A DNA stretch of 40,081 nucleotides. Source: Deinococcota bacterium. Its GTDB lineage: Bacteria > Deinococcota > Deinococci > Deinococcales > Trueperaceae. The DNA lies in the NCBI GenBank assembly GCA_963170125.1, contig CAUJFI010000132.1:20001-60081 (forward strand), given 5' to 3'. Positions 4,173 through 36,336 of the stretch are shown one piece after another. A program made the translations under genes and the position numbers. The stretch's first letter is position 1. Every line of letters begins with the position of its first letter. A model generated the notes under the pieces. The model had not been told where the DNA came from. It did not search any database and worked only from the letters and a program-made list of their open reading frames with translations.

Positions 4173-4910
4173 CTAGCGCCCCTTCACGTACAAGGCGTTG
4201 AAGGTAACGCGGAAGCCGCCCCGCGTTGCAACACGCACGGCAGTCGTCGGCAACGCGGGGTAGAGGCCGTGAACCGCGAACGCGGCGTCAAGACCGGCCA
4301 GGTCTGGCAACGTCATGCGGCGGCTGCCGGGCCCGAAGCCGAGCCACACGTCCGGCTCACCCGCCAGTTGCAGGAGCGCCGCCCCATCGGGTCGCGACTC
4401 GGGGCCGAAGTTGGCCACGAGGCACAGGCCGCCGGGACGCAGGACCCGCGCGACCTCCATCATGGCCGCGCCTAACTCGGTGCGGCTGGTGGCGTCCTGC
4501 AGCACCCCGAGCGCGACGACCAGGTCGAAGGCTCCGGATCGGTAACGGCCCAGGTCGTGCATCCGGCCGCGCCTCACGCGGCGGGCGGCCTCGTCTTGGC
4601 CCATCACTGCGTTCAGGCCGCGCCGCGCCTCCGCCACCATGGTGGAAGAAGCGTCGAGCGCCCAGACGTCCGCGCCCTGTCGGGCGAGCCACACGGCGTT
4701 GCGGCCGCCGGCACAACCGACGTCGAGCGCCTTCGGCCGCGCGGGTGCCCCCCAGGCCCGCCTGACGGCGCCGTAGGGCCCCTCACCGGCGAACAGCGCG
4801 AGCAGGCGTTGGTCTGGCGGCCTGGCCGCGAACCGTGCCGCCACCTCGGGTTCGTCCCAGAGGCTGGGTTCGGCCTTGGGTCCCTCGGCCCCCTTGGGCG
4901 CGTGCGGCAT
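4173..4910 (-). CDS. Class I SAM-dependent methyltransferase
   Basis: The 245-residue product has the Rossmann-type motif I LDVGCAGGRNA at 62-72 and the acidic end of strand 2 in WALDAS near residue 86, followed by a motif around LVVALGVLQDAT. These bind S-adenosylmethionine; the methyl acceptor is unknown. An ATG seven codons upstream (4931) is possible, but the ATG at 4910 is preferred because the hexamer TATGCT lies exactly six bases before it, the leaderless arrangement seen repeatedly in this window. The next gene, a PEP-mutase family enzyme, follows after 19 bases and probably shares the transcript. Confidence 0.85.
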   Translation of the reverse strand: MPHAPKGAEGPKAEPSLWDEPEVAARFAARPPDQRLLALFAGEGPYGAVRRAWGAPARPKALDVGCAGGRNAVWLARQGADVWALDASSTMVAEARRGLNAVMGQDEAARRVRRGRMHDLGRYRSGAFDLVVALGVLQDATSRTELGAAMMEVARVLRPGGLCLVANFGPESRPDGAALLQLAGEPDVWLGFGPGSRRMTLPDLAGLDAAFAVHGLYPALPTTAVRVATRGGFRVTFNALYVKGR

Positions 4911-4916
4911 GTCGGC

Positions 4917-4922
4917 AGCATA
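4917..4922 (-). promoter_or_regulatory. -10 element for leaderless methyltransferase gene
   Basis: TATGCT on the minus strand, six bases (GCCGAC) before the ATG at 4910. Transcription would begin at or next to the start codon. It lies inside the first codons of the longer alternative reading of the gene, which argues against that longer start. Confidence 0.6.
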
Positions 4923-4958
4923 AACCCGCATTGGTCGGCCGGCCCGACCGTTAGGTGC

Positions 4959-34908: not shown

Positions 34909-34909
34909 G

Positions 34910-36325
34910 TCAGTCCCCAACGAGCGCCCCGAGCAGCCCGGCGCGCCATGCGCCAGCCACCGGGTCGTACGCCCCGAAGCCGTCCGCGAACTCCCAGTAC
35001 GCCCAGTTGAGACCGCGCGCCTCGGCCGCCTCGCGAACGGCGCGGGTCCAGCGGATGCGCGAGGCCAGGTCGGCCTTCTCGTACGCTCCGAACTCACCGA
35101 CGAGGACGGGCGGCGCGCCGTGCGCTTCCGCCCACTCCCTCACGAAGTCGAGCGCTGCTGCCACCGCCTCGGTCTCCGTAACGAGAAGCGGCCGGCGCCG
35201 GCCCTCCGCCCTGAGCTCGAGGCCTTGCAGCACGAAGGGCGTCTGGGGCACGGCCGTGCGGTTCTGGAGGATGACCCGCTCCACCCCTCCGGCGCCACCG
35301 CACGCCGCCAGGTCTACGACCGCCTCGACGCCAGCCACGGTGTTCACCGACACCGTCACGTTGTCGGCCCCCCGCCCGCAGGCGACCAGGAGCTCCACGG
35401 CGCGCGACGTCGTGAACGCGAGCCGGTCGTAGCCGAGGAGGACTCCGAAGGGCTGCAGGTAGTAGCCCGCCCAAGCAGCGTCGAAGGTGAGCGTGAGCTC
35501 GTCCCCATACTCCCGCGTCGTGTCCCAGGACCAGTCGGCCCAGGCCGGGTTCGGCGTCAACCGCGAGCCGGTCCAGGTCGTACCGACGGGCGGCGCGGGC
35601 TCGACCCACTCGGCGCCTTGGTGCGTGAAGTAGAACGGGTCGTAGTAGTGCACGGTGAGGACGAGACGGTCGTCGTCCGGCCACGCCAGGCCCGGCAGGT
35701 TGCCGATGCCGTTGAAGCCCGTCGGTCCGACGACGACCCAGCGAGTTGGGTTGCTCTCACGCACCACGGCCAGCGCCTGGGAGACGAGGGCGTTCCAGGT
35801 CGCGTCGTCCAGGGCGTCGTGCGGCTCGTTGAGGAGCTCGAAGAGGACGCCGTCAGGGGCGTCCCGGTAATGCTCCGCGATCTGCCGCCAGATGGCTAGC
35901 CACCGCCCAGTGTGGCCACCCGGGTCCTCGTGCAGCTCGTCGTAATGGTGAAAGTCGACGATGACGTTCATGCCACGCTCGACGATCCAGCCGACGACCT
36001 CGTCCACGCGGGCGAAGAAGGCGGGATCGACCGCGTACGGTGCGGCGACGGCGGCGTGCGCCGACCACTTGATCGGCAACCTGACAGTCTGGAAGCCGGC
36101 GCTCCCGACGGCCTCGGCGTAGCCTTCCTGCAACGTGACGCCCCAGTCGCCTTCGTTCGGCGCCTCGAGGGCGTTGGCGAAGTTGATGCCACGGCCGAAG
36201 GGCTCTGGCACGCCGCTGCCGGTAGGCGGGAGCGGCTGGCTGGCACAGGCGCCGACGAGCGTAAGGGCGAGGCCGAGGCTGAGAGCGACGGCCAGGGCGG
36301 CGACGCGACGCGGTTCCTTGCGCAT
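34910..36325 (-). CDS. GH5 family glycosidase lipoprotein with inserted domain
   Basis: The 471-residue protein starts with a lipoprotein signal (LVGAC, cysteine at residue 27) and a GH5 (endoglucanase-like) TIM barrel. RGINFANALEAP opens the barrel, VIVDFHHYDELHED is strand 3, the acid/base is E167 in LLNEPHD, and the nucleophile is E411 in VGEFGAYEKAD. About 130 residues (253-382) interrupt the barrel with a beta-rich segment resembling a carbohydrate-binding module. It should hydrolyse beta-linked glucans or mannans at the cell surface; the exact sugar is unknown. The ATG at 36325 has TATACT five bases upstream; the longer reading adds an arginine-rich, unlikely N-terminus. Confidence 0.88.
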   Translation of the reverse strand: MRKEPRRVAALAVALSLGLALTLVGACASQPLPPTGSGVPEPFGRGINFANALEAPNEGDWGVTLQEGYAEAVGSAGFQTVRLPIKWSAHAAVAAPYAVDPAFFARVDEVVGWIVERGMNVIVDFHHYDELHEDPGGHTGRWLAIWRQIAEHYRDAPDGVLFELLNEPHDALDDATWNALVSQALAVVRESNPTRWVVVGPTGFNGIGNLPGLAWPDDDRLVLTVHYYDPFYFTHQGAEWVEPAPPVGTTWTGSRLTPNPAWADWSWDTTREYGDELTLTFDAAWAGYYLQPFGVLLGYDRLAFTTSRAVELLVACGRGADNVTVSVNTVAGVEAVVDLAACGGAGGVERVILQNRTAVPQTPFVLQGLELRAEGRRRPLLVTETEAVAAALDFVREWAEAHGAPPVLVGEFGAYEKADLASRIRWTRAVREAAEARGLNWAYWEFADGFGAYDPVAGAWRAGLLGALVGD

Positions 36326-36330
36326 GGGCG

Positions 36331-36336
36331 AGTATA
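36331..36336 (-). promoter_or_regulatory. -10 element for leaderless GH5 gene
   Basis: TATACT on the minus strand, five bases (CGCCC) before the ATG at 36325. Confidence 0.55.

Follow-up and report, generated by a model that had tools for sequence, protein, structure and literature searches.

Where do messages begin relative to their genes in the Trueperaceae, a family of the phylum Deinococcota? The question is raised by a 40,081-nt stretch of a Trueperaceae genome (GenBank assembly GCA_963170125.1, contig CAUJFI010000132.1, positions 20,001 to 60,081; hereafter, the window), in which unrelated genes carry a TANNNT hexamer a few bases before the start codon. The original prediction for this DNA listed 13 such hexamers, most of them exactly six bases before the start codon, and took them as promoters of messages that begin at the start codon. 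All 13 hexamers and their spacings are present in the sequence as claimed. Analysis of the window, its genome and the phylum makes it very probable that the hexamers are −10 elements placed mostly six or seven bases before the start codon, that the messages are leaderless, and that in a minority of genes the predicted leaderless start opens a short, coupled mini-cistron ahead of the gene.

Position and anatomy of the TANNNT box

That such coincidence is unlikely by chance, as had been stated, is borne out by 100 dinucleotide shuffles of the window. TANNNT followed by six bases and ATG occurs eight times in the window, compared with a mean of 1.01 and a maximum of five in the shuffles, none of which reached eight. 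With either ATG or GTG as the start codon, nine matches were found versus 3.95 expected, and two of the 100 shuffles reached nine. One of the eight ATG matches, at 11221, is absent from the original list; its coordinates place it inside the coding sequence of the glycerol-3-phosphate dehydrogenase gene (start at 10825), in frame, and it is therefore probably background. When 38 hand-picked open reading frames (ORFs) of the window were scanned over their first 330 bases for in-frame starts at spacings of five to eight, 12 sites emerged, identical to those of the original prediction other than 27175.

The genome of the window comprises 3.08 Mb in 179 contigs, and a 420-kb sample of it was used for histograms and gene calls. 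In this sample, ATG follows the box 41 times at spacing six and 40 times at spacing seven over a background of about 11. For the whole genome, control spacings that keep the codon phase gave 218 matches at six versus 66 at 12, and 210 at seven versus 95 at 13. A codon-usage gene caller found 390 genes in the sample, and the 370 with a score above 25 were kept. Among these, a box precedes 9, 30, 24 and 8 in-frame ATG starts at spacings five, six, seven and eight, respectively, and zero to five at each of the remaining spacings between 0 and 30; GTG starts behave in the same way, more weakly (13 genes at spacing six, zero to seven at other spacings). Counting any start codon, 74 of the 370 genes carry the box at spacing six or seven. 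The peak at called starts recurs in six further genome samples (G054 and G011, from families other than that of the window genome, G108, from the same family, and G090, G085 and G093; 2.50 Mb together with this genome), with few cases in G090 (7 and 4 of 91).

The signal extends across the phylum. For the 111 genomes returned by a phylum search, the z-score combined over spacings six and seven exceeds 3 in 109, six alone doing so in 107 and seven alone in 102. The excess at six makes up 0.50–0.69 of the sum for six and seven in 24 of 31 genera (range 0.31–0.81). Thus, the peak at exactly six bases is real, but seven is its equal, and spacings of five and eight also occur; the genome-wide count of TANNNT by distance to the start, which had been proposed as a check, shows enrichment at six and equal enrichment at seven. 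The spacing rule is six or seven, matching that published for Deinococcus radiodurans.

The box at spacing six or seven is found before 41 of 116 divergent genes, 23 of 135 co-directional genes with a gap above 40 bases, 7 of 113 with a gap of 40 bases or less, and 3 of 6 genes at contig ends; divergent genes differ from those with a co-directional upstream gene within 40 bases at P = 3e-8. Two bases before the box, G is present in 75% of 116 cases (87) in this genome, compared with 41% of 1986 TANNNT hexamers (P = 1.5e-13), and three bases before it T is present in 34%, compared with 17% of all TANNNT. The G and T preceding the box are thus a predicted extended −10 element. The excess of G is also seen in G054 (53 versus 30%), G011 (62 versus 36%) and G085 (74 versus 55%), and T shows no excess in G011 (8 versus 21%). 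A search for a −35 consensus found no enrichment of a TTGACA-like element at spacers of 15–19.

The base before the ATG is C in 13 of 13 cases at spacing five, 83% of 52 at six and 68% at seven, compared with 57% of 224 other called ATG starts (P = 1e-4 for spacing six). Pyrimidines as a whole account for 13 of 13 cases at five and 89% of the 52 at six in this genome, and at spacing six for 97% of 38 in G054 and 95% of 41 in G011, where other ATG starts have 66% and 55%, respectively. At spacing seven there is no clear pyrimidine excess (50% of 22 versus 66% in G054; 61% of 23 versus 55% in G011). A pyrimidine at −1 and a purine at +1 form the usual transcription initiator, which, for spacing six at least, places the predicted transcription start at the A of the ATG.

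The boxes are conserved in the relative L001, an uncultured Trueperaceae metagenome-assembled genome whose pyruvate dehydrogenase E1 is 95% identical to that of the window. The alignment covers window positions 11517–34356 in four segments of 81–90% identity, and the TANNNT box and the start codon are kept at all eight covered sites (15613, 15653, 16879, 20088, 25763, 27175, 29658 and 30559). The twelve bases preceding the ATG at 29658 are identical in L001, while the start of the coding sequence has diverged.

We propose that a sigma-70-type polymerase would use an extended −10 box five to eight bases, mostly six or seven, before the start codon, that transcription would begin at the first base of this codon to give a message with neither leader nor ribosome-binding site, and that a 70S ribosome would initiate directly on the 5′-terminal AUG. 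The claim of leaderless messages as in Deinococcus is in this respect strongly supported by the spacing peaks, gene position, initiator, extended −10 element and conservation; what has to be given up are the spacing of exactly six and the reading of 27175.

If the boxes were −10 elements with transcription starting a few bases up- or downstream, the messages would have short leaders and would not be leaderless. The spread of spacings over five to eight would suit such leaders, as would spacing seven in G054 and G011, where the lack of a clear pyrimidine excess would allow a start one base upstream; the dominance of a pyrimidine before the A at spacings five and six argues against them, and we consider them distinctly unlikely. 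It is extremely improbable that coding or compositional bias alone makes TANNNT-N6-ATG common, with no promoter function. A control with the reversed pattern gave no clear excess in some genomes with a high background (543 versus 678 in G084; 376 versus 356 in G100), as bias would predict, but the phase-matched excess persists, also in these two genomes (z of 4.4 and 5.4, respectively), and of the 81 matches at spacing six or seven in the 420-kb sample 54 coincide with called gene starts and 3 are inside genes out of frame. The reversed-pattern control had also suggested a loss of leaderless genes in G084 and G100, which the phase-matched spacings overturned.

Several observations weigh against the leaderless reading of the boxes. 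Sites at spacings eight and nine could carry leaders of one to three bases. A clear signal is missing in G110 (z of 1.6) and G074 (z of 2.4), both of the family of the window genome and with high background counts, and the excess of G before the box is slight in G090 (53% of 15 versus 49%). TANNNT hexamers 11–30 bases before in-frame ATG starts of this genome also have the G in 66% of 59 cases; the extended −10 G is therefore not special to leaderless starts, and extended −10 promoters without a −35 element may be the general type in the lineage. Words resembling a Shine–Dalgarno (SD) sequence occur in 12 of the 74 box genes versus 175 of the 296 others. This comparison is weak, as the box takes up the place of an SD sequence and thereby accounts for part of the low rate.

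Putative coupled mini-cistrons at predicted leaderless starts

The boxes were originally said to fix several start codons, and at 12 of the 13 positions box and gene start do agree. The exception is 27175, near the start of an aldehyde dehydrogenase (ALDH) gene. The −10 box TACACT (27163..27168, + strand) lies six bases before the ATG at 27175, which is out of frame with the ALDH ORF (27183–28655) and opens a 14-codon ORF, the predicted leaderless mini-cistron MEPCQLNPDRGSAA (27175..27219, +). The TGA of this ORF and the ATG at 27216 overlap as ATGA, and this ATG starts the ALDH gene (27216..28655, +), for which the Pfam match was obtained on the longer ORF. Since 27175 opens this overlapping frame, the start codon of the original prediction belongs to the mini-cistron and not to ALDH.

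An ALDH search gave 46 matches in 30 of 39 genomes of the family, and 30 loci, one per genome, were compared, among them a 44% paralogue (L202). The box lies five or six bases directly before the gene start in 21 loci, the coupled form is found in three (this genome, G000, as well as G092 and G094), and neither is found in six. Read by eye, the frames of G092 and G094 have the same length and overlap and consist of other residues, with the box, the ATG and the ATGA kept; G094 has, besides the coupled form, a box seven bases before the gene's own ATG. The three peptides (MEPCQLNPDRGSAA, MEPRRLNPDREPAA and MGPHRLNPDLGSAA, translated by eye) differ, and only one of them contains cysteine, as a single residue. 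In G090, G091 and G093 the box stands directly before the ALDH gene. Where this genome has the mini-cistron, other members of the genus have an ALDH gene predicted to be directly leaderless. Recoding of ALDH was considered for seven relatives listed with one internal TGA and was rejected; none of these codons falls within the aligned part, and they are read as the genes' own ends.

A frame in the seven genome samples was counted as coupled if it lay outside called genes, had no more than 60 codons and ended in a stop overlapping, as ATGA, GTGA or TTGA, a candidate start of the following gene. Eight were found at spacing six and five at spacing seven, compared with 1.24 per spacing elsewhere (13 versus 2.49, P = 2e-6); 12 of the 13 overlap by ATGA or GTGA and one by TTGA. 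The genes pilT and ctpA and a gene for a PEGA-domain protein were each compared with six or seven relatives, chosen from the closest among the matches listed. The coupled frame of pilT is present in six of eight genomes of two genera, with 10, 11 or 15 codons, and in G090 its overlap extends further. That of ctpA is present in six of seven genomes of two genera, with 9 or 18 codons, and is absent in G090. Both counts include the three close relatives G000, G092 and G094. As with ALDH, the peptides of the pilT and ctpA frames differ, here in both sequence and length, and the box, the ATG and the ATGA or GTGA overlap stay. For ALDH, pilT and ctpA, the −10 box lies five to seven bases before the ATG of the short ORF, which is predicted to be 5′-terminal. 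Comparison of these frames suggests that their geometry rather than the peptide is likely to be under selection.

A third arrangement of the same promoter is seen at pilT in G082 (L278), with a box, TAGACT, nine bases before the ATG and no mini-cistron.

Two candidates were rejected. At the PEGA-domain gene (C52:16693), relatives keep a promoter-like box further downstream, inside the supposed frame and before AAAGGGGG; this candidate is still counted among the 13 coupled frames. For the mini-cistron ATG at 19331 (− strand), before a DUF3084 gene, the hexamer TACTAT encodes Tyr-Tyr near the C-terminus of the upstream ABC gene, which ends in RTYYLGNEFQL, with related endings in other loci as judged by eye; the loose count includes the site, but the strict one does not.

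In this minority of genes, the ATG that follows the box would open a short frame (9–18 codons in the three cases compared) with its TGA overlapping the gene start as ATGA or GTGA. Such a mini-cistron would load ribosomes without a leader and hand them to the gene by termination–reinitiation.

The ATG at 27175 might instead be a chance ATG on a leadered message that is translated normally from 27216, which is unlikely, though not negligibly so. The rate of 1.24 coupled frames per spacing is what chance would give in 2.5 Mb, and the three genomes sharing the mini-cistron are closely related; against this, the box, the ATG, the 14-codon length and the ATGA are kept in all three despite changed intervening sequence, and the boxes directly before ALDH in other relatives suggest that the promoter fires at its ATG position. 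Alternatively, the mini-cistron could act not as a ribosome loader but as a regulatory leader peptide (attenuator) whose sequence matters, a role for which the leaderless cysteine-rich upstream ORFs of mycobacteria, with their proposed attenuation, offer a precedent (PMC4633059). The ALDH peptide varies among its three genomes, with its single cysteine in one of them, and the pilT and ctpA peptides vary in sequence and length, which makes an attenuator very unlikely.

The coupled, ribosome-loading form also has findings to its disadvantage. The mini-cistrons of G000, G092 and G094 come from close relatives and are not independent cases. The background of coupled frames is uneven, with five at spacing three, five at spacing eight and four at spacing 37, and short out-of-frame ORFs taken as a whole show hardly any enrichment (11 and 15 at spacings six and seven versus about 10 per spacing in five samples). 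At ctpA, four genomes have a second box nine bases before the same ATG. Of the six candidates from the window genome itself at spacing six or seven, three are supported by relatives (ALDH, pilT and ctpA) and the PEGA candidate was rejected.

We suggest tentatively that leaderless genes of the Deinococcota switch in evolution between a direct start and a peptide-indifferent, RTGA-coupled mini-cistron on the same promoter, and that the coupled form is independent of the mycobacterial one and initiates a gene with neither a leader nor a ribosome-binding site of its own; this proposal may well hold and could about equally well fail.

The other boxes of the window

Five boxes on the + strand, besides that of ALDH, precede start codons in the window. 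TAGCAT (7300..7305), TACGCT (8121..8126) and the extended −10 box tggTACGCT (10813..10818) each lie six bases before an ATG: at 7312 for a MarR-family gene, at 8133 for a DUF34/NIF3 gene with a Pfam match from residue 1, and at 10825 for the glycerol-3-phosphate dehydrogenase gene. TATGAT (15640..15645) lies seven bases before ATG 15653 of a SpoU methylase gene, a spacing that is six in L001, and TACAGT (30545..30550) lies eight bases before GTG 30559 of a gene without a Pfam match.

On the − strand, a spacing of six is found for TATGCT (4917..4922) before ATG 4910 of a methyltransferase-domain gene (4173–4910), for TAAGCT (16886..16891) before GTG 16879 of a response regulator gene, for TATGCT (25770..25775) before ATG 25763 of a gene without a Pfam match, and for the extended box tggTAGCCT (29665..29670) before ATG 29658. 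TATACT stands five bases before two ATGs, that at 15613 of a rhodanese-domain gene (box at 15619..15624) and that at 36325 of a gene with a glycosyl hydrolase family 5 cellulase domain (box at 36331..36336). The extended box tgaTACCAT (20097..20102) lies eight bases before ATG 20088 of an ABC transporter ATPase gene.

The divergent rhodanese-domain and SpoU methylase genes are separated by 39 bases (15614–15652) that hold both −10 boxes, so that each promoter reaches toward the coding start of the other gene; the arrangement is kept in L001.

Comparison with known leaderless systems

The first pattern, the leaderless −10 box, is already known for the phylum, and the coupled form is known from mycobacteria. 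Zhong et al. (2025) tested a −10 motif 6–7 bp before ORFs experimentally in D. radiodurans, where TANNNT precedes nearly one third of the genes, most of them without a classical −35 region, and found the motif in all Deinococcus-Thermus species analysed (PMC12340547). The genes described here are like these in the TANNNT core, the spacing of 6–7 bp and the lack of a classical −35 region in most, and their share, 74 of 370, compares with the nearly one third of D. radiodurans (PMC12340547). Further traits of the Deinococcus-Thermus genes are RpoD binding and transcript 5′ ends at the start codon; with such 5′ ends the initiator bases described here agree. By word search, 'Trueper', 'extended', 'TGN' and 'upstream open reading' are absent from the main text of that paper; unlike it, our survey covers Trueperaceae genomes and finds the G two bases before the box. 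Earlier, Zheng et al. (2011) predicted leaderless genes from a signal resembling TANNNT some 10 bp ahead of the start and ranked Deinococcus-Thermus highest among bacteria for such TA-led genes (PMC3160421); five Deinococcus-Thermus genomes were included, and 'Truepera' is absent from the main text. A literature search on leaderless transcription and Truepera returned a match that, by its title, concerns arabinofuranosidases. The present analysis adds the Trueperaceae, with numbers, to the groups for which leaderless expression is predicted. It suggests that in this phylum the promoter often reveals the start codon, with the caution that some leaderless ATGs are not where the gene begins.

As to coupled leaderless frames in the Deinococcota, no report was found among the papers listed, judged by titles and the beginnings of abstracts. 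Two other systems resemble them in part. In Escherichia coli, Beck et al. (2016) described 5′-terminal upstream AUGs (uAUGs), for which mutations reducing their use affect the downstream gene variably (PMC4965119). They likewise have a terminal AUG with the main gene starting downstream, but conventional leaders and SD sequences, and the abstract gives no overlap geometry. The leaderless bicistronic design of Corynebacterium (PMC10367133), a synthetic bicistronic cassette on a leaderless promoter, is an engineered counterpart.

The closest parallel is with mycobacteria, in which Shell et al. (2015) described RTGA-coupled leaderless small ORFs, 23 of 220 in Mycobacterium tuberculosis (PMC4633059). 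There a 5′-terminal start, and here a predicted one, begins a small ORF with a TGA that overlaps the gene start; in the mycobacterial example, as in the frames described here, conservation extends to the architecture but not to the peptide. The mycobacterial cases were established by start-site mapping and ribosome profiling, whereas those of the Deinococcota are predicted from sequence and comparison. Unlike in the mycobacterial account, ALDH appears to be directly leaderless in some relatives and coupled in others. In the dehydrogenase and pilT sets, direct and coupled starts form natural pairs that allow ribosome transfer, and with it the parallel to the mycobacterial coupled ORFs, to be tested.

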